Assembly (NCBI RefSeq): GCF_002982135.1
Contig: NZ_CP019981.1
Location: 1,364,001 to 1,428,000, forward strand
Reading direction: 5' to 3'
DNA length: 64,000 nt
Origin: Pediococcus inopinatus
Lineage (GTDB): Bacteria; Bacillota; Bacilli; Lactobacillales; Lactobacillaceae
The number at the start of each line of letters is the position of its first letter. Position 1 is the first letter of the stretch. Shown in pieces: positions 50,606-63,579 of the stretch. The notes beneath the pieces are model-generated. The model did no database searches. It was not told where the DNA came from and saw only the letters and a program-made list of their open reading frames with translations. A program made the translations under genes and the position numbers.

Positions 50606-50622
50606 TTACCAATTTCCTAATA

Positions 50623-50715
50623 ACTTAAGGCACAAGACAGAGCAGACTTAGTGCTGCTTCCTTCCGGATCTGACACAATTCGTGAGTCCATCCTTGCCTT
50701 AAGGCCTCTCGGCAC
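50623..50715 (-). ncRNA. ffs: Signal recognition particle RNA, small bacterial type
   Basis: On the minus strand the conserved apical domain GTCAGATCCGGAAGGAAGC is followed by AGC and flanked by a closing stem of CCTTAAGGCAAG and CTTGTGCCTTAAG. This is the small (4.5S-like) SRP RNA, which forms the particle with Ffh for co-translational targeting. The position between tadA and dnaX is the standard one in lactobacilli. The ends are estimated from the stem. Confidence 0.93.
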
Positions 50716-54688: not shown

Positions 54689-55705
54689 ATGGCAGACTCT
54701 TCAAAATTAGATCCTATCAAATGGACTCAAGATGGTAATTACAAGGCAATCAACTGGAATCAAGTTTCCGATGAGATTGATAAAGCTACTTGGGAAAAAT
54801 TAACCGAACAGTTTTGGCTCGATACCCGAATTCCAATTTCCAATGACTTGGATGATTGGCGCACCCTTGATGAAGATCATAAATGGGTTGTGGGACACGT
54901 CTTTGGTGGCCTTACCCTTCTTGACACCCTTCAATCACAAGACGGTATGGCAGCACTACGAAAAGATATTCGTACGCCCCACGAAACAGCCGTTTTTAAT
55001 AACATTCAGTTCATGGAATCTGTTCATTCAAAGAGTTATTCATCAATCTTTGAAACGTTAAATACACCAGGAGAAATTGACGAGATCTTCTCATGGAGTG
55101 ATAGCGAAGAATTCCTTCAAAACAAAACTAAGAAAATTTATACTCTCTATCATGATGATGGTGATCCACTAAAGAAAAAGATTTCAAGCGTCTTTTTGGA
55201 AACTTTCTTGTTCTACTCTGGTTTCTTTACACCACTCTATTACCTTGGTCACAACAAATTAACTAACGTTGCAGAAATCATTAAGTTAATTCTTCGTGAC
55301 GAATCTGTTCATGGTACTTACATTGGTTACAAATTCCAATTGGCTATGAAAGAATTATCAGAAAACAAACAGCAAGAACTCAAAGACTGGATGTTTAACT
55401 TCTTATACGAACTTTATGATAACGAAGAAAAATATGTCCACGTTTTATATGATCAAGTCGGTTGGACGGACCAAGTCTTAACGTTTACGCGCTATAACGC
55501 AAACAAGGCCTTAATGAATTTGGGTCAAAATCCCCTCTTCCCTGACACAGAAGCTGACGTGAACCCAATTGTGATGAACGGAATCTCTACAGGAACTGCT
55601 AATCACGATTTCTTCTCACAAGTTGGTAATGGTTATCGTTTAGGAAAGCTAGAAACTATGTCTGATAAAGATTACAATATTGGCGAACCCAAAGACCAAA
55701 AATAG
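54689..55705 (+). CDS. nrdF: Class Ib ribonucleoside-diphosphate reductase, beta subunit
   Basis: Subunit that carries the metal-tyrosyl radical. The 338-residue helical protein has metal-ligand segments such as QFMESVHSKSYS and ILRDESVHGTYIGYKF (EXXH). The flavodoxin-like activator nrdI, usual in such operons, is not in this window. The end of the gene is followed after about 45 bases by an IS3 element; the remaining downstream sequence shows only a weak short stem, so no complete terminator is seen. Confidence 0.96.
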   Translation: MADSSKLDPIKWTQDGNYKAINWNQVSDEIDKATWEKLTEQFWLDTRIPISNDLDDWRTLDEDHKWVVGHVFGGLTLLDTLQSQDGMAALRKDIRTPHETAVFNNIQFMESVHSKSYSSIFETLNTPGEIDEIFSWSDSEEFLQNKTKKIYTLYHDDGDPLKKKISSVFLETFLFYSGFFTPLYYLGHNKLTNVAEIIKLILRDESVHGTYIGYKFQLAMKELSENKQQELKDWMFNFLYELYDNEEKYVHVLYDQVGWTDQVLTFTRYNANKALMNLGQNPLFPDTEADVNPIVMNGISTGTANHDFFSQVGNGYRLGKLETMSDKDYNIGEPKDQK

Positions 55706-55791
55706 TATTAAAAAGACGTCACTGGTTAGTAACTAACTGCACTAGGCCCTGTCAAGTTGACAGATGAAATAATATAAATTTAAGTTTGTTT

Positions 55792-56685
55792 CTAAATGGC
55801 TTCATTCCAGTATTCATCTGGAGTGAGGCCATTTCTTATTGCTGAACGGTTATGGTGGTTAAAATAATATATTCCATCTTCTACAAGTTTTACTAGTTCT
55901 TCATAAGTTTTTGCCAACGGATGGCGAGCCATCCAACGAAGTTTAAATTCATTCCACCAACGTTCCATCGGAGCGTTGTCGTATGGAGTGCCTGGTCTTG
56001 ACATGCTACGTGTCACGTTATAACGAGCCAAATAATTATTGAAAGCTCCAGAAGTATAAGCAGATCCTCGATCTGTGTGAATTAATGGATGAGCATTACT
56101 AAATTGATTGAAAGCTCGCTGAAATACTTGAATTTCGGCTGCACTAGTCTCCGTCAGGCTTAGATTGTAGGCTAACAGTTTTCGCCCGTATAAATCTAAG
56201 ACACCACTTAAACGTACCTTGTGCTCACCATTTACACCGTAGGTTAATTCAGTTGAGTCTGATAACCAAACTTGATTAGGTGCCGTAACTTTGAAGCTTT
56301 GATTTAAAGTGTTATCCAGGATATATTGATCAGACTGTTTAACCCGATTATGTTTCTTAACCTTGATTTCACAGCGTAATCCGAGTTCACGCATAATTCG
56401 TTTCACTTGTTTAAGTGTCACAGCAAAAGTGACTTGGTTATCTTTTTCTAGGTTAGTAAGAAGATTCCCAGCTCCTATTCCTTGAAAATGAAAATCAAAC
56501 CAGTATTGGACACGCTCCTTAAGTACTTTATCTTGTCTTTCCCAAGATGTTATTTGGCGATTAATTCCTTTGTAATAAGCTTGACGGCTTACGCCGACAA
56601 CTTTAAGTAGTTTGGTGACCGCTCCTTGTTTCCCCTGACTGACTTCACTTATGGCCTGATATGCCAGTCGATGCTGTTTATTCAC
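55792..56685 (-). CDS. IS3-family transposase OrfB (DDE integrase)
   Basis: The 297-residue protein has the rve integrase core with catalytic residues D (LSDSTELTYG), D (HTDRGSAYTS) and E (NAPMERWWNEFK). An HTH_21-type helix lies upstream. The in-frame start is GTG overlapping the orfA stop by 4 bases, but translation is more likely as OrfAB by -1 frameshifting at the A7 run (56709-56715). No stop interrupts the fused frame. Confidence 0.92.
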   Translation of the reverse strand: MNKQHRLAYQAISEVSQGKQGAVTKLLKVVGVSRQAYYKGINRQITSWERQDKVLKERVQYWFDFHFQGIGAGNLLTNLEKDNQVTFAVTLKQVKRIMRELGLRCEIKVKKHNRVKQSDQYILDNTLNQSFKVTAPNQVWLSDSTELTYGVNGEHKVRLSGVLDLYGRKLLAYNLSLTETSAAEIQVFQRAFNQFSNAHPLIHTDRGSAYTSGAFNNYLARYNVTRSMSRPGTPYDNAPMERWWNEFKLRWMARHPLAKTYEELVKLVEDGIYYFNHHNRSAIRNGLTPDEYWNEAI

Positions 56686-57356
56686 TCCCTGCGCTGAATT
56701 TCTTGAAATTTTTTTATGAAGGCTTCCATAAGTTCTTTATCTTTCAACTCTGATTCTAGTTGTCGGATTCGCAAATTAGCTTTTTCTAAATCAGTTAGTT
56801 CACTTAGTTGTTTATGATGTCCACGATTATCAATCAGAGCTTCATAGCCAGCTTGTTTTGTTTTAAGTACCCATGAGCGTGCTTGCTGATAAGAAACAGC
56901 GAAATGTTCGGCTGCTTCAGCATAACTATGTTTGTGTCTTGTCACATATTCGACAACCTCAATACGTTCCTTAAAGTTGGTTTTACGACTCATAATAGGG
57001 ACCTGCTTTCTAAACGGCGAGGCCGTTATTTGTTTATCCCTATTATACCTGGAAACCCAATTGAGTATCTGAGTCGTTGATCGTAATCCATACTTTATAG
57101 CTATTTCACGATACGTGCCTTCACCATTCAAAAAATCACTAATGGCTTCCCGTTTTAACTCCTTAGAGTAATGCTTGTTATGATGGGCTTCGGAAAGCTC
57201 TTCGGTCCCGCCACTTTGATACTTTACTTGCCAATCTTTCACAGTTTGGGTTGCAACCTTATTGTGTTTGGCAAAGTTACCTAAAGATAAGTTTGACTGT
57301 TTAAATTCCGTCAATATCGCTAATTTTTCAGCCGCTGTATATTTAGATCTAGGCAT
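56682..57356 (-). CDS. IS3-family transposase OrfA (DNA-binding helix-turn-helix)
   Basis: The 224-residue protein has helix-turn-helix regions of the HTH_28/IS150 OrfA kind (residues 1-60, 60-110 and 120-170) and ends with a leucine-rich coiled coil (LRIRQLESELKDKELMEAF). It binds the element ends. It overlaps orfB by 4 bases. An A-A-A-A-A-A-A slippery run near its end fits the usual IS3 frameshift. Confidence 0.9.
   Translation of the reverse strand: MPRSKYTAAEKLAILTEFKQSNLSLGNFAKHNKVATQTVKDWQVKYQSGGTEELSEAHHNKHYSKELKREAISDFLNGEGTYREIAIKYGLRSTTQILNWVSRYNRDKQITASPFRKQVPIMSRKTNFKERIEVVEYVTRHKHSYAEAAEHFAVSYQQARSWVLKTKQAGYEALIDNRGHHKQLSELTDLEKANLRIRQLESELKDKELMEAFIKKFQEIQRRE
56709..56715 (-). 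promoter_or_regulatory. Predicted -1 frameshift slippery site of the IS3 element
   Basis: Seven A on the minus strand, in register A-AAA-AAA relative to orfA. After a -1 slip the frame continues into orfB with no stop, giving an OrfAB fusion, as known for IS3-family elements. Confidence 0.7.
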
Positions 57357-57394
57357 AGAAAAATCCCTCCATGATAATCAGATGAATTATATTG

Positions 57395-58828
57395 GGTCTA
57401 CACTTTCTGGTATTGGTGAATAACTGATACCAGTTTTTATTTTGAAAATTAAAAGGACATCTGTCCTCTTTGTGCTACGATTTAATCACCAAACAAAATC
57501 GAAAAGAGGAAAAACAGATGTCCCTAACTAATTCTATCTTAAGCTTGTTTGAAATGACAGACCCAAATATAACCGTAACTGGTGTTACCAAGAAACGTTG
57601 CCCGAATGGACAACGAATTCATGTCGTTCACGCCAACCTTTCTTATCAGCTTGTGAAATGTCCCCATTGTGGCCATAAAAGTCTAATTAAAAACGGTACC
57701 CACGTTAGTCATCTAAGGTTGGGAACCTTATCAGGCGGACGTTATGAAATGCAGCTAAGAAGACAAAGATATCAATGCCAACATTGTTTAAAAACCTGTG
57801 GAGCTAAAACTAACCTCGTTAGACGTAATGAAACTTTTACCCACAATGTTAAACATCAGGTCATTGTGCTAGCTCGTGACATGCTGACCAGTAAAGAAAT
57901 CGCTAAAATTTGTGGCATTTCACCAAGTAGTGTTCAACGTATTTTAAATGCAAATATTCACTTGGCTTACCGTGTTAAGCAACTTCCGCCAAATCTTTGT
58001 TTCGATGAATTTCGTTCCTGTAATCATCTAATGTCCTTTAACTGTTGCGATGCCGTTAGTCATCGCCGCATTGTGACCCTCAAAGATCGTCTCAGTAAGG
58101 ATATCATTGATTACTTTGAAGCTCGTTATTCAGTTCAAGAACGTGCGAAAGTTCAAACAATTACTATTGATATGAACGCCGAATATGCTAGCTTTATTCA
58201 TCGTTTATTCCCGAATGCTGTCACGATTATTGACCGTTTCCACATTATTCAGCTTGCTGGTCGTGCACTAGACAATGAACGTACATGTATTATCCGTACT
58301 TTTCAAGATAAGCATTCACGCATTTACCGCATCCTTAAATCTCAATGGCGTTTATTTCATTTGGCAGAAGAGAAAATCAATGACACTAAGCTTATCTATT
58401 TACGAGGCATTAACGAGTATATGACCCAACAGAACGCCATCGACCTTGCCTTAGATGAATTTCCAGAATTCAAAACTGTGTATCAAACTTATCAAGGCAT
58501 TCTAACCGCTATTCACCAAAAGGATGCCACGGAATTTAAAAATTTGATTACCAACTACCAAGTAGCTGGTAATCAAATGGACGTCACCATTTCAACCTTC
58601 GTTAAGAACGGCTCAGCAGTGCTCAACAGTTGTCGTTATCCGTATTCTAACGGTCCTATTGAAGGACTTAATCGTAAAATCAAGGTATTAAAGCGTAGCT
58701 GTTTTGGTTTTCGAAATATTCATAACTTCTTCATTCGTATCAGTTTAATTCATGAGTAAACAAAAAGCACATTCACCGAAGTGAACATGCCTTCAAAAAT
58801 CTCTACCAATACAGTTTGACAGAGACCC
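57395..58828 (+). mobile_element. ISL3-family insertion sequence
   Basis: Both ends begin GGGTCT-N10-GTATTGGT: left from 57395, right reading inward from 58828 on the minus strand. This 1434-bp unit holds one intact transposase on the plus strand. The expected 8-bp target duplication is not seen (flanks attatatt and aagattat differ), which suggests rearrangement or deletion after insertion. The right end interrupts a T-box leader. Confidence 0.85.
57518..58759 (+). CDS. ISL3-family transposase
   Basis: ATG at 57518 (413 residues) has AGAGG 8 bases upstream; the frame open 16 codons earlier lacks one. N-terminal zinc-binding CPHCG...CQHC (about 50-90), an HTH segment (TSKEIAKICGISPSSVQRI) and the DDE_Tnp_ISL3 core with TIDMNAEYASFIHRLFPN, DRFHI and the final YPYSNGPIEGLNRKIK are visible. 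Full length and without disruption, so it may be active. Confidence 0.93.
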   Translation: MSLTNSILSLFEMTDPNITVTGVTKKRCPNGQRIHVVHANLSYQLVKCPHCGHKSLIKNGTHVSHLRLGTLSGGRYEMQLRRQRYQCQHCLKTCGAKTNLVRRNETFTHNVKHQVIVLARDMLTSKEIAKICGISPSSVQRILNANIHLAYRVKQLPPNLCFDEFRSCNHLMSFNCCDAVSHRRIVTLKDRLSKDIIDYFEARYSVQERAKVQTITIDMNAEYASFIHRLFPNAVTIIDRFHIIQLAGRALDNERTCIIRTFQDKHSRIYRILKSQWRLFHLAEEKINDTKLIYLRGINEYMTQQNAIDLALDEFPEFKTVYQTYQGILTAIHQKDATEFKNLITNYQVAGNQMDVTISTFVKNGSAVLNSCRYPYSNGPIEGLNRKIKVLKRSCFGFRNIHNFFIRISLIHE

Positions 58829-59086
58829 AAGATTATGGGGCGAAGACTTCGCGGTGCCACCCATTTTTTAATATTTTCCATACTAAACTTAGCAAACACT
58901 CCTCACCACAAAACGGGCAAAAGAATGTTCCGTAAGGTATCGGTTACTACCGGGAAACCAGCCAGATAACGACCACTTTCCAATTTCGAGATCATCTTCA
59001 AGCTTTTAAACAACGCCCTTTTTCATCAACAAAGGCTCTCTTTTAGAAGTTGTTCAGCTCTACTCTTCTCATCAACACTTAATATT
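58829..59086 (-). ncRNA. T-box leader, truncated in its terminator by the ISL3 element
   Basis: On the minus strand: GATGA and AGTA (K-turn and loop-E elements) near 59070, AGAGAGCC with its distal loop, a 3' strand ending AGCTT-GAA-GATGA with the specifier, stem II/III sequences, and the antiterminator T-box GGGTGGCACCGCG (58849-58861). The terminator begins (GAAGTCTTCGCCCC) but its 3' arm and T tail are cut at 58828/58829. The T-box base is C (TGGC), predicting a tRNA with discriminator G73. Specifier GAT (Asp) fits that better than ATG. The regulated gene is absent. Confidence 0.85.
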
Positions 59087-59100
59087 TTTAACTTTTACTT

Positions 59101-59129
59101 AATTTAACATTCACTTCTGGTAAAGTCAA
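59101..59129 (-). promoter_or_regulatory. Predicted promoter of the T-box leader
   Basis: On the minus strand TTGACT (59124-59129) and extended -10 TG-T-TAAATT (59101-59106) are 17 bases apart. The first base of the -35 is also the first base of the IS target repeat, so the promoter was just spared by that insertion. Confidence 0.65.
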
Positions 59130-59144
59130 TAACAGATTATGAAT
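59129..59144. repeat. 16-bp direct repeat, left copy (ATAACAGATTATGAAT)
   Basis: Identical to 60737-60752 and 62330-62345, bordering the two tandem insertion sequences. Best explained as target duplication. Confidence 0.9.
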
Positions 59145-60736
59145 GTTGTTCGCCAGTGTGTTGTTCGCCAGTGATAATGTCTTAACTAATTGGTCAGCAA
59201 AAATGTCTCGCAAATATGTTTCACCTCCGGCAAAATAGTTAATGGAGGTGGACAACATGAGAAAGGTTGTTTTAACAGTGAAAGAAGACCACAAATATCA
59301 AGTAATTCAGCAAGTAGTTAATGAACGAAAGAATCGTTGTCGAGCTAGTATTGAATTAAATCTATCATTACGACAAATTGATCGATTAATAATCAAATAT
59401 CGAACTAAGGGTAAATCTAGCTTTGTGCATGGCAATACTGGCAAAAAGCCACAGAATAAGATCTCAACCAAACAAATCAATCGAATTATTAAGCTGTATG
59501 AAACTGATTACCAAGGCTTCAATATTTCCCATTTCTATGAGTTTTTATTAAGTAGAGAAGGTATTCAAGTTTCTGAATCAACTTTACGACGAATACTTAG
59601 AACCCATCGGGTTCTGTCACCCAAAGCTCATCACAATACCAAAAGACAAATACGCAAAGAATTAAAGCTCAAGGAACAACGGCAGGCTTTGTCTAAACGT
59701 GACGAAAAGACCTTACAAGTTGTTGAACCAGTGGAAGCAATAAAGGCTCATCCGTCACGCGCTAGGAAAAAATTTGCCGGTGAACTTATTCAGATGGATG
59801 CCTCGGTTGAGCTCTGGTTCGGCAATACAAAGACTTATCTACATGCCGCGATTGATGATTATAGTGGTGCGATTGTTGGCGCCTACTTTGATACCGAAGA
59901 AACGTTAAACGCTTATTATCAAGTTATGGCTCAAATATTGACTTCTTTTGGAATCCCGTATGAGATTTTAACAGACCGAAGAACGGTTTTTAACTCAAAC
60001 AAAAAAGCAGATTCTCCAACGAAGGAAAACCCACTCACTCAATTCGGTTATGCGTGTAAGTCACTGGGAACCAAACTCTCAGTGACTAGCATACCGCAAA
60101 CCAAAGGCAGAATTGAACGCCTTTTTGAAACACTACAAAGCCGACTTTTAAATGAACTTAAACTAGCAAATACAACGACAATTGAGCAAGCTAACGACTT
60201 CCTCAACCCATTTGTAAAAGAATTCAATCAAAAGTTTGCTTTACCTATTAAAATTAACACGAGTGGCTTTGACAAACAACTTACATCTTCAGAAATTGAT
60301 CAGATTTTAATCACAACTCGAGAGCGCTCAATTTCATCTGGTCACACTGTCAAATTAAATAATCAGGAATATCAATTATTTGAATCAGATAAGCTAGTTT
60401 GTTTAAAACCACGAACTAAGGTCTTAATCGTTAAAACTTTAACTGGTAAGCTTTACGCTACTACAGATGCAGATCAAATATTTGATTTACATCCGCTTGC
60501 AGATCATGACTTAGTTTCGCCAGCTTTCGAGGTTATTATTGAAAAACCATCTAATATGGCCCCAAAGAACAAGAAGCCCAAGGCTTCTATGAACCACCCA
60601 TGGAGGAGAGCCAATTATCGCGACTATTTGCGTACAATTGGGTATTCCGAAAAAGGAGCAAATCATATGGCATATGAGATTTAAATTTGACAAGGATGTT
60701 CAATGATTATTGAGACATTTTTCCTTACCGATTGAC
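59145..60736 (+). mobile_element. IS1202/ISNCY-like insertion sequence, copy 1
   Basis: 1592 bp between 16-bp repeats, with imperfect inverted ends (GTTGTTCGCCAGTG-ATAATGTC against GTCAATCGGTAAGGAAAAATG, sharing TCG and AATGTCT-AA). The left end carries an extra 15-bp duplication (59145-59159 and 59160-59174) that copy 2 lacks. One intact transposase. Long target duplications are a trait of IS1202-related elements. Confidence 0.85.
59257..60684 (+). CDS. IS1202/ISNCY-like transposase, copy 1
   Basis: ATG at 59257 gives 475 residues; GGAGGTG 6 bases upstream is the ribosome site, and an ATG five codons earlier overlaps it. N-terminal helix-turn-helix (LSLRQIDRLIIKYRTKGKSS), then an integrase core with catalytic residues in QMDASVELW, LTDRRTVF and RIERLFETLQS. 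The C-terminal part has a small beta-rich domain (VKLNNQEYQLFE...). The exact family name rests on recollection of ISNCY/IS1202 elements in lactobacilli. Confidence 0.87.
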   Translation: MRKVVLTVKEDHKYQVIQQVVNERKNRCRASIELNLSLRQIDRLIIKYRTKGKSSFVHGNTGKKPQNKISTKQINRIIKLYETDYQGFNISHFYEFLLSREGIQVSESTLRRILRTHRVLSPKAHHNTKRQIRKELKLKEQRQALSKRDEKTLQVVEPVEAIKAHPSRARKKFAGELIQMDASVELWFGNTKTYLHAAIDDYSGAIVGAYFDTEETLNAYYQVMAQILTSFGIPYEILTDRRTVFNSNKKADSPTKENPLTQFGYACKSLGTKLSVTSIPQTKGRIERLFETLQSRLLNELKLANTTTIEQANDFLNPFVKEFNQKFALPIKINTSGFDKQLTSSEIDQILITTRERSISSGHTVKLNNQEYQLFESDKLVCLKPRTKVLIVKTLTGKLYATTDADQIFDLHPLADHDLVSPAFEVIIEKPSNMAPKNKKPKASMNHPWRRANYRDYLRTIGYSEKGANHMAYEI

Positions 60737-60752
60737 ATAACAGATTATGAAT
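60737..60752. repeat. 16-bp direct repeat, middle copy
   Basis: Shared by both insertion-sequence copies: the only 16 bases between the end of copy 1 and the start of copy 2. Confidence 0.9.
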
Positions 60753-62329
60753 GTTGTTCGCCAGTGATAATGTCTTAACTAATTGGTCAGCAAAAATGTC
60801 TCGCAAATATGTTTCACCTCCGGCAAAATAGTTAATGGAGGTGGACAACATGAGAAAGGTTGTTTTAACAGTGAAAGAAGACCACAAATATCAAGTAATT
60901 CAGCAAGTAGTTAATGAACGAAAGAATCGTTGTCGAGCTAGTATTGAATTAAATCTATCATTACGACAAATTGATCGATTAATAATCAAATATCGAACTA
61001 AGGGTAAATCTAGCTTTGTGCATGGCAATACTGGCAAAAAGCCACAGAATAAGATCTCAACCAAACAAATCAATCGAATTATTAAGCTGTATGAAACTGA
61101 TTACCAAGGCTTCAATATTTCCCATTTCTATGAGTTTTTATTAAGTAGAGAAGGTATTCAAGTTTCTGAATCAACTTTACGACGAATACTTAGAACCCAT
61201 CGGGTTCTGTCACCCAAAGCTCATCACAATACCAAAAGACAAATACGCAAAGAATTAAAGCTCAAGGAACAACGGCAGGCTTTGTCTAAACGTGACGAAA
61301 AGACCTTACAAGTTGTTGAACCAGTGGAAGCAATAAAGGCTCATCCGTCACGCGCTAGGAAAAAATTTGCCGGTGAACTTATTCAGATGGATGCCTCGGT
61401 TGAGCTCTGGTTCGGCAATACAAAGACTTATCTACATGCCGCGATTGATGATTATAGTGGTGCGATTGTTGGCCCCTACTTTGATACCGAAGAAACGTTA
61501 AACGCTTATTATCAAGTTATGGCTCAAATATTGACTTCTTTTGGAATCCCGTATGAGATTTTAACAGACCGAAGAACGGTTTTTAACTCAAACAAAAAAG
61601 CAGATTCTCCAACGAAGGAAAACCCACTCACTCAATTCGGTTATGCGTGTAAGTCACTGGGAACCAAACTCTCAGTGACTAGCATACCGCAAACCAAAGG
61701 CAGAATTGAACGCCTTTTTGAAACACTACAAAGCCGACTTTTAAATGAACTTAAACTAGCAAATACAACGACAATTGAGCAAGCTAACGACTTCCTCAAC
61801 CCATTTGTAAAAGAATTCAATCAAAAGTTTGCTTTACCTATTAAAATTAACACGAGTGGCTTTGACAAACAACTTACATCTTCAGAAATTGATCAGATTT
61901 TAATCACAACTCGAGAGCGCTCAATTTCATCTGGTCACACTGTCAAATTAAATAATCAGGAATATCAATTATTTGAATCAGATAAGCTAGTTTGTTTAAA
62001 ACCACGAACTAAGGTCTTAATCGTTAAAACTTTAACTGGTAAGCTTTACGCTACTACAGATGCAGATCAAATATTTGATTTACATCCGCTTGCAGATCAT
62101 GACTTAGTTTCGCCAGCTTTCGAGGTTATTATTGAAAAACCATCTAATATGGCCCCAAAGAACAAGAAGCCCAAGGCTTCTATGAACCACCCATGGAGGA
62201 GAGCCAATTATCGCGACTATTTGCGTACAATTGGGTATTCCGAAAAAGGAGCAAATCATATGGCATATGAGATTTAAATTTGACAAGGATGTTCAATGAT
62301 TATTGAGACATTTTTCCTTACCGATTGAC
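60753..62329 (+). mobile_element. IS1202/ISNCY-like insertion sequence, copy 2
   Basis: 1577 bp, same orientation as copy 1 and nearly identical. The noted differences are a 15-bp shorter left end and one base change (G to C) in the transposase. This indicates a recent tandem insertion or duplication. Confidence 0.85.
60850..62277 (+). CDS. IS1202/ISNCY-like transposase, copy 2
   Basis: 475 residues from ATG 60850, the same start logic as copy 1. It differs in one residue, Pro for Ala in the strand GAIVG(A/P)YFD between the first and second catalytic Asp; about residue 209 counted from this start. Whether the change affects activity is unknown. All three catalytic positions are kept. Confidence 0.87.
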   Translation: MRKVVLTVKEDHKYQVIQQVVNERKNRCRASIELNLSLRQIDRLIIKYRTKGKSSFVHGNTGKKPQNKISTKQINRIIKLYETDYQGFNISHFYEFLLSREGIQVSESTLRRILRTHRVLSPKAHHNTKRQIRKELKLKEQRQALSKRDEKTLQVVEPVEAIKAHPSRARKKFAGELIQMDASVELWFGNTKTYLHAAIDDYSGAIVGPYFDTEETLNAYYQVMAQILTSFGIPYEILTDRRTVFNSNKKADSPTKENPLTQFGYACKSLGTKLSVTSIPQTKGRIERLFETLQSRLLNELKLANTTTIEQANDFLNPFVKEFNQKFALPIKINTSGFDKQLTSSEIDQILITTRERSISSGHTVKLNNQEYQLFESDKLVCLKPRTKVLIVKTLTGKLYATTDADQIFDLHPLADHDLVSPAFEVIIEKPSNMAPKNKKPKASMNHPWRRANYRDYLRTIGYSEKGANHMAYEI

Positions 62330-62345
62330 ATAACAGATTATGAAT
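62330..62345. repeat. 16-bp direct repeat, right copy
   Basis: Third identical copy. Joining 59128 to 62330 restores a plausible uninterrupted sequence upstream of the T-box promoter. Confidence 0.9.
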
Positions 62346-62467: not shown

Positions 62468-62836
62468 TTATTTAACTGTAACAACAGCGCCAGCTTCTTC
62501 AAGCTTAGCTTTAACATCGTTTGCTTCATCTTCTGAAACGTCTTCTTTGATAGCTGAAGGTGCCTTGTCAACAAGGTCCTTAGCATCTTTCAAGCCAAGT
62601 CCAGTGATTTCACGAACAGCCTTGATTGCTTTAACCTTAGCTGAACCTGCTTCTGTTAATTCAACAGTGAATGTTGATTTAGCAGCAGCACCGTCGCCAC
62701 CAGCAGCGCCTGCAGCAGCAACTGGAGCAGCAGCTGAAACACCGAATTCGTCTTCGATAGCTTTAACTAAATCGTTTAAGTCAGTAATTGAAGCACCTTT
62801 TAAGTCTTCAATAAATTGGTCTTTGTCTAATGCCAT
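62468..62836 (-). CDS. rplL: 50S ribosomal protein L7/L12
   Basis: Stalk protein that recruits translation factors. ATG at 62836 (122 residues, [14 protein letters not shown]) has GGAGG 8 bases upstream; an ATG five codons earlier overlaps that site. The Ala/Gly-rich hinge and the C-terminal domain [18 protein letters not shown] are typical. It follows rplJ by about 40 bases and ends at a terminator, so rpoB is not cotranscribed here. Confidence 0.98.
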
Positions 62837-62878
62837 TTTTGTTTCCTCCATTTTTTGTATGTCTAATTTTAATTAAAA

Positions 62879-63385: not shown

Positions 63386-63417
63386 TAATTTTCACCTCCA
63401 GCAAGTTTTTAAACCAT

Positions 63418-63525
63418 AAAAAATCCGCACCCAGACTTCGGATGCGGAAATTTACATTTCTACGTTCCTCGGCAGGCAGTTTGAGACGAAATCGTCACCT
63501 GAGTCTTAGGCAAATTTTATTATAA
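63418..63525 (-). ncRNA. L10 leader RNA (autoregulatory)
   Basis: On the minus strand the conserved L10-binding sequence CCTAAGACTCAGGTGACG, then CGTCTCAAACTGCCTGCCGAGG, ends in a hairpin TCCGCATCC...GGGTGCGGA with TTTTTT (63418-63448), acting as attenuator. Binding of L10-L12 limits rplJL expression, as known in Firmicutes. Confidence 0.92.
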
Positions 63526-63579
63526 TTTACTAATCCAAGTTACCATAGAAACAAGTTCCATGTCAACATTCAATTCAAA

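Follow-up and report, generated by a model that had tools for sequence, protein, structure and literature searches.

An orphan methionine T-box leader in Pediococcus inopinatus, the probable deletion of its metA-hom operon between ISL3 copies, and a neighbouring IS1202-group element that appears to insert at promoters

The interval between nrdF and rplL of Pediococcus inopinatus holds a T-box leader that is cut within its terminator by an ISL3-family element and followed by no gene. We explain this leader as the remnant of a methionine operon, metA-hom, removed by a deletion that probably ran between two ISL3 copies, and the IS1202-group element on its promoter side as one that appears to follow a target rule tied to the -35 hexamer; the explanation as a whole we hold at a probability of about 0.88. 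It draws on direct observation of the leader, the orthologous operon of relatives, the absence of metA and hom, the anatomy of the junctions and the promoter pattern at the insertion sites. Gene loss that leaves an orphan T-box behind is, taken alone, ordinary and well documented; what surprises is that the target of the neighbouring IS group is linked to promoters. The features discussed (Table 1) lie in a stretch of 64,000 nucleotides, the whole of which we call the window.

Table 1. Features of the nrdF-rplL interval, in window coordinates
Feature	Position	Strand	Remarks
nrdF, left neighbour	54689..55705	+	in relatives separated from the leader by log, hom and metA
IS3-family element, in the nrdF terminator region	55738..57393	-	ends 33 bp early at the ISL3 junction
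ISL3-family element	57394..58828	+	flanks ATTATATT / AAGATTAT: no target duplication
Terminator-like hairpin in the ISL3 end, facing the leader	58763..58794	-	-16.8 kcal/mol, z -4.67
Terminator 5' arm	58829..58850	-	by alignment with relatives having the whole hairpin; the relatives' hairpin folds
T-box leader RNA (RF00230)	58833..59084	-	cmscan 91.9 bits, E 1.3e-20
T-box sequence UGGGUGGCACCGCG	58850..58863	-	intact; identical in relatives
Specifier codon AUG (Met), GAAGAUGA	58993..58995	-	AUG in both relatives too
Promoter of the orphan leader	59101..59129	-	TTGACT-17-TAAATT, TG before -10; 9/12
GTCAA (reverse of -35), then 14-bp direct repeat TAACAGATTATGAA	59125..59143	+	
IS1202-group (ISNCY_2) element, copy 1	59159..60737	+	1579 bp
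IS1202-group element, copy 2	60752..62330	+	tandem with copy 1
rplL, right neighbour	62468..62851	-	right neighbour here and in relatives

The orphan leader and the metA-hom operon of relatives

The sequence-only reading had placed a T-box here on the minus strand, with its promoter, specifier and T-box sequence intact, its terminator cut at an ISL3-type end and no gene behind it, and in all of this it proved correct. The covariance model RF00230 matches at 58833-59084 over model positions 1-219 (cmscan of 58500-59400); its 91.9 bits (E 1.3e-20) fall 1.1 bit below the Rfam gathering cut-off of 93 bits, which is why the leader is missing from the scan of the whole window at the gathering threshold. 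The genome has 26 T-box matches, 13 of them below that cut-off. Promoter matches of 9/12 quality are not rare in the region (6 found vs 6.7 expected from shuffles), and hence the evidence for the leader promoter rests on its position and its conservation: near-identical hexamers stand at the same place in P. damnosus and P. parvulus. Both of these species also conserve the specifier and the T-box sequence. The specifier context reads GAAG-AUG-A here and in P. parvulus and GAAA-AUG-A in P. damnosus. In other leaders of the same genome the specifier, read by eye, is CUC before leuS, UUC before pheS and UAC before tyrS, and AUG again before metE-like, metB/C-like and metN-like genes, all gene names being taken from translations read by eye. 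With the AUG specifier common to the three species and methionine genes behind the leader in two of them, the amino acid sensed, as judged from sequence, is methionine.

The terminator of both relatives is a long hairpin with a T-run, complete in each. Here the 5' arm reaches AUAAUCUU and runs to 58829, after which the ISL3 end begins, and the 3' arm and T-run are gone; to the left follow the ISL3 element, the IS3 element and nrdF. The covariance match, the T-box sequence and the specifier are present, a complete terminator and a downstream gene are absent; the leader is what remains of a T-box unit that no longer works. Other structured RNAs of the window are an ordinary L10 leader (63409-63528, minus strand) and a small SRP RNA (50619-50705, minus strand). 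Elsewhere in the genome, two Met-type leaders identical over 252 bases (L011, G000:C1:6390-6641; L012, 2123671-2123922) both precede the same short-chain dehydrogenase-like ORF close to opposite contig ends, a pair that represents either a duplication or overlapping contig ends.

In a search of 60 genomes, that of P. inopinatus included, the leader was otherwise found in P. damnosus DSM 20331 (76% identity over 281 bases; 98.9 bits) and in P. parvulus NBRC 100673 (77.8 bits, cut by the contig end), the latter as two pieces at contig ends; three further genomes gave leader matches of just 27-32 bases. The P. damnosus order is rplJ, rplL, leader, metA, hom and then log in opposite orientation. 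In P. parvulus, nrdE, nrdF and log are followed, in the opposite orientation, by hom, metA and the leader; rplJ-rplL, together with the leader's 5' part, stand at the end of another contig. The metA gene encodes homoserine O-acyltransferase and hom homoserine dehydrogenase. The relatives' metA belongs to PF04204 (266.1 bits), and its closest NCBIfam models are those of MetA, under their cut-offs; hom matches PF00742 and NF004976, and log matches TIGR00730. The nrdF DNA of the window genome is 88% identical to that of P. damnosus. The P. damnosus genome compared here agrees with the DSM 20331 record at 2049 of 2049 bases.

A family search of the P. inopinatus genome returned no PF04204 and no PF00742 gene; each family occurs in 2 of the 12 members of the genus, namely P. 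damnosus and P. parvulus. We had considered that the missing genes were moved by an inversion to lie beside another ISL3 copy, a candidate rejected on the lack of any metA or hom family member in the genome. Among the best 80 of 231 named loci, only P. parvulus has the leader at nrdF. In P. cellicola and P. argentinicus nrdF, log and rplL are present, with neither leader nor metA there, and P. ethanolidurans, in which nrdF and log are again present, is without leader or metA at the locus and without rplL in the 10 kb covered. The absence of the genes alone is therefore not unusual, since P. cellicola and P. argentinicus do without both leader and gene, and the history of the operon is patchy across Pediococcus. 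Outside the genus, Limosilactobacillus caecicola (L125) also carries a homologue of hom (43%) in its nrdF-rplL interval. The idea that a gene had been removed, leaving the leader as a fossil, held up in the two sequence checks for which the sequence-only reading had called: the covariance hit is strong, and in the nrdF-rplL interval the relatives that bear the leader have a T-box-controlled metA-hom behind it. Beyond that reading we add the methionine identity, the suggested two-ISL3 deletion and the promoter-linked target of the promoter-side IS.

ISL3 junctions and the route of the deletion

The ISL3 transposase of the window (NF033550, 268.8 bits at a cut-off of 180; PF01610) belongs to one of 22 full-length or nearly full-length copies in the genome, 20 of which have a perfect 8-bp duplication; the exceptions are the window copy and a nested copy. 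The left junction of the window copy lies inside a palindrome at the end of the IS3 element, CAGATGAATTATATTATTTCATCTG, and three other IS3 copies have this palindrome whole and keep the last 33 bp that are missing here. The right junction is the loop of the T-box terminator. Both are hairpin sites, as are 7 of the 20 other ISL3 sites. The inverted-repeat score is at least 8 at these 7 of the 20 sites with duplications, a level attained by 1.3% of 3000 positions drawn at random from the window and by 1.6% of shuffles; the median is 5 vs 4, and 13 of the 20 are without a strong hairpin. ISL3 in P. inopinatus hence favours hairpin targets, a preference of which our literature search found no description. 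At another locus (L024/L029, G000:C1:1857874-1859487) a second Met T-box is split by an ISL3 copy with its 8-bp duplication intact, and the downstream gene, ECF-transporter-like by eye, is still present. That copy was considered as a further insertion into a T-box terminator loop and rejected, as it lies just 5' of the T-box sequence.

Each junction of the window copy looks, from the flanking sequence, like one half of a separate ISL3 insertion. No other ISL3 copy in the genome carries the reciprocal flanks, in agreement with a deletion and not with an inversion, and the recombination of two ISL3 copies in direct orientation explains two half insertions of seemingly separate origin. Two such copies were probably the endpoints of the deletion, by an order of events and a recombination mechanism that we infer as follows. 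In the ancestor, low charged tRNA-Met would have caused T-box readthrough into metA and hom, with log convergent beyond. One ISL3 copy would have entered the terminator loop of the T-box leader. Behind nrdF, an IS3 element would have landed and in turn received a second ISL3 copy, within the palindrome close to its terminus. When these two ISL3 copies recombined, everything between them would have been lost, from the end of the IS3 element through log, hom and metA to the 3' arm of the terminator. On the other side of the leader, an IS1202-group element inserted upstream of the promoter, leaving it undamaged.

The genes might instead have been lost through an adjacent deletion started by a single ISL3 copy, which would yield the identical final junction and, as here, leave one ISL3 copy behind. 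However, the left endpoint falls in the centre of the IS3-end palindrome (stem score 9), the type of site that ISL3 favours, and a random deletion end would rarely fall on the centre of a palindrome; we accordingly regard a one-copy deletion as unlikely. In P. damnosus, independently, one ISL3-type end stands right behind nrdF and another before log (L079/L160, L071), with matching 8-bp flanks in the nrdF terminator. These ends lie at nearly the same place as the IS3 element of P. inopinatus.

If the orphan leader is transcribed, its RNA should stop at the hairpin in the ISL3 end (14 pairs with a T-run behind, 58794-58763), about 70 nt past the T-box, giving a predicted length of roughly 330 nt. 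We propose no remaining regulatory function for it. That it keeps a role as a small RNA, for instance by binding uncharged tRNA-Met, might be read from the intact promoter, specifier and T-box together with the terminator-like hairpin downstream; yet a recent loss would equally leave the motifs intact, and the ISL3 copies of the genome are mostly 99-100% identical; such a role is very improbable. As a remnant, the leader offers a clean case, dated by its anatomy, of a riboswitch that has outlived its operon, useful for the study of regulatory RNA decay and for understanding why Rfam-type surveys meet leaders that have no gene.

Insertion sites of the IS1202 group

The element on the promoter side has a transposase matching NF033594 (transpos_ISNCY_2, 366.1 bits at a cut-off of 250), its IS1202 class being drawn from this profile match and from weaker relatives annotated as IS1202-like, not from the IS1202 transposase itself. 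Seven copies occupy six sites in the genome, and the target duplication is 27-28 bp at the five other sites vs 14 bp in the window. In the window, at 59130-59158 and 60738-60751, the repeats that separate the tandem copies measure 14 bp, half as long as usual (27-28 bp), and the IS left end is present a second time, as a 15-bp duplicate before copy 1. At all six sites a TTGAC hexamer starts at the duplication edge or one base further on, and a -10-like hexamer follows 16-17 bp beyond it. Three of the six are T-box leaders (L014, L003, L023), the element standing directly upstream of the promoter also at L003 (G000:C1:1241118-1241345) and L023 (1918487-1918695). The repeat in the window had been considered as a dif-like site; the sites are unlike dif and have the promoter pattern instead.

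A search for the transposase covered 395 Lactobacillales genomes (27 matched) and 398 phylum-wide genomes (92 matched), from which 35 places in 13 genomes and 20 places in 5 genomes, respectively, were fetched; the 7 copies of P. inopinatus itself and one plasmid locus bring the total to 63 places. A usable duplication was obtained at 44 of these, from 16 genomes, and none at 19. The 42-locus set has no row for L263, L265, L269, L277 and L283, and L057, L058, L264, L267 and L273 were dropped for match lengths below 24 or above 29; the first two of these are the tandem copies of the window, and the flank of L273 resembles another IS end, not a promoter. In the 21-locus set nine have no row (L320-L323, L328-L331, L332). 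The plasmid relatives comprise 3165 records, of which one locus was scanned (L332), with no duplication. Promoters were scored at offsets 0-1 and spacers 16-18, and duplications were found without the demand for TG/TGT at the IS left end.

The result is one-sided. At the 44 sites the score reaches at least 8/12 on the promoter side in 40 (mean 9.5) vs 3 on the other side (mean 5.1), and at least 9 in 34 vs 1; TTG stands at offset 0 or 1 in 37 vs 1. For Lactobacillales only, at least 8/12 is reached on the promoter side by 28 of 32 sites and on the opposite side by 3 of 32; among shuffles the share is 8%, and among random window positions 3%. The binomial tail is 1e-26 and treats the 32 sites as independent, L261 and L280 being 78% identical. 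The mean promoter score is 8.3 at offset 0 vs 2.7-4.4 at 40 other offsets (-20 to +20), and the -10 match is 4.5/6 at spacer 17, with other spacers at 1.2-2.9, about 2.1. In other classes all 12 sites, from three genomes, score at least 8/12; the duplications there measure 26-28 bp in one genome (G667) and 17-21 bp in two (G485, G639). The four sites scoring below 8/12 are L257, L268, L270 and L272. ISL3, taken as a control, gave 0 of 20 sites on either side in the same promoter test. A gene was called behind the promoter at 32 of 44 sites vs 9 of 44 on the other side by a crude ORF finder, and 5 of these 32 calls begin at the hexamer itself and are probably spurious. The genes behind the sites, read by eye, include rpoB (twice), guaB, groES, secE, mreB and aspS and those of the ribosomal proteins bS6, uS15, bL21 and bL28.

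The IS1202 group thus appears, on this sequence pattern, to insert just upstream of bacterial promoters. In its long-duplication members one duplication edge would lie exactly at the -35 of a sigma-A-type promoter, with the IS left end towards the promoter and the transposase gene pointing away. On balance we favour the view that the transposase of these members picks promoters engaged by the RNA polymerase holoenzyme and makes one cut at the -35's upstream edge and a second 17 or 27 bp upstream of that, so that the element comes to rest before strong housekeeping promoters and leaves them unharmed; the second cuts of the two duplication classes, 17 vs 27 bp upstream, would be one helical turn apart. 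Recognition of promoter-bound RNA polymerase is our reading of the sites, under which the T-box leaders at three of the six genome sites would be examples of promoter choice.

The transposase could also read the TTG motif directly, promoters as such being irrelevant: TTG stands at offset 0 or 1 in 37 of the 44 sites, and the right end of the IS is itself TTGACA. This we consider quite improbable, for the -10 is conserved at spacer 17, and six of the seven sites lacking TTG have a -10 matching at least 5/6, which points to recognition of the whole promoter, most simply as bound polymerase. Survivorship, in which insertions elsewhere are lost and those upstream of promoters, which they spare, are harmless, is hardly credible, since it would not fix the edge to a single base (8.3 at offset 0) on one side only, a precision and one-sidedness that argue for target recognition, and ISL3 in the same genome is without any such pattern.

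Sigma-A promoters thus appear to be chosen, precisely to the base pair, by an IS group for which no target was found in a survey of 2023. If the transposase recognises promoter-bound polymerase, this would be a bacterial parallel to transposons elsewhere that target the transcription machinery, and each IS1202-group insertion would point to a promoter even where a genome has no transcript data.

Relation to known systems

T-box control of methionine genes is known, for example in L. plantarum (Wels et al., 2008; PMC2494555), a paper whose text contains none of the terms orphan, pseudogene, transposase and Pediococcus. Our literature search on orphan T-boxes and insertion sequences returned nothing on the P. 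inopinatus case, and promoter targeting by the IS1202/ISTde1 group was not found in the titles and abstract openings that searches of the open-access literature returned. The orphan leader shares with the Met-specific T-box leaders of Lactobacillales (RF00230) the fold, the position of the specifier and the T-box sequence; unlike these, its terminator is halved and its target genes are gone. The ISL3 element shares NF033550, PF01610 and the 8-bp duplications with its family, and differs in its preference for hairpins, seen at 7 of 20 sites.

The promoter-side element resembles the IS1202 family as portrayed in the relevant portion of its survey (Harmer, Pong and Hall, 2023; PMC10132070): a length of about 1.5 kb, one transposase, TGT...ACA ends and long duplications. 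The same portion gives the family a DDE transposase with Q seven residues after E and the IS1202 subgroup duplications of 16-28 bp; it has the short-duplication members target dif, from the same side, and reports that a conserved target was not found for members with longer or no duplications. As in the dif-targeting members, the target here lies left of the IS with one duplication copy between the two; unlike in them, it is a sigma-A-type promoter and not a dif site. The dif-targeting ISAjo2 and ISAba32 likewise keep a fixed side, orientation and distance to a site occupied by a host protein, differing in their duplications of 3-5 bp and in the use of XerC/dif instead of promoters, so far as the passages on these elements in that survey describe them (PMC10132070).
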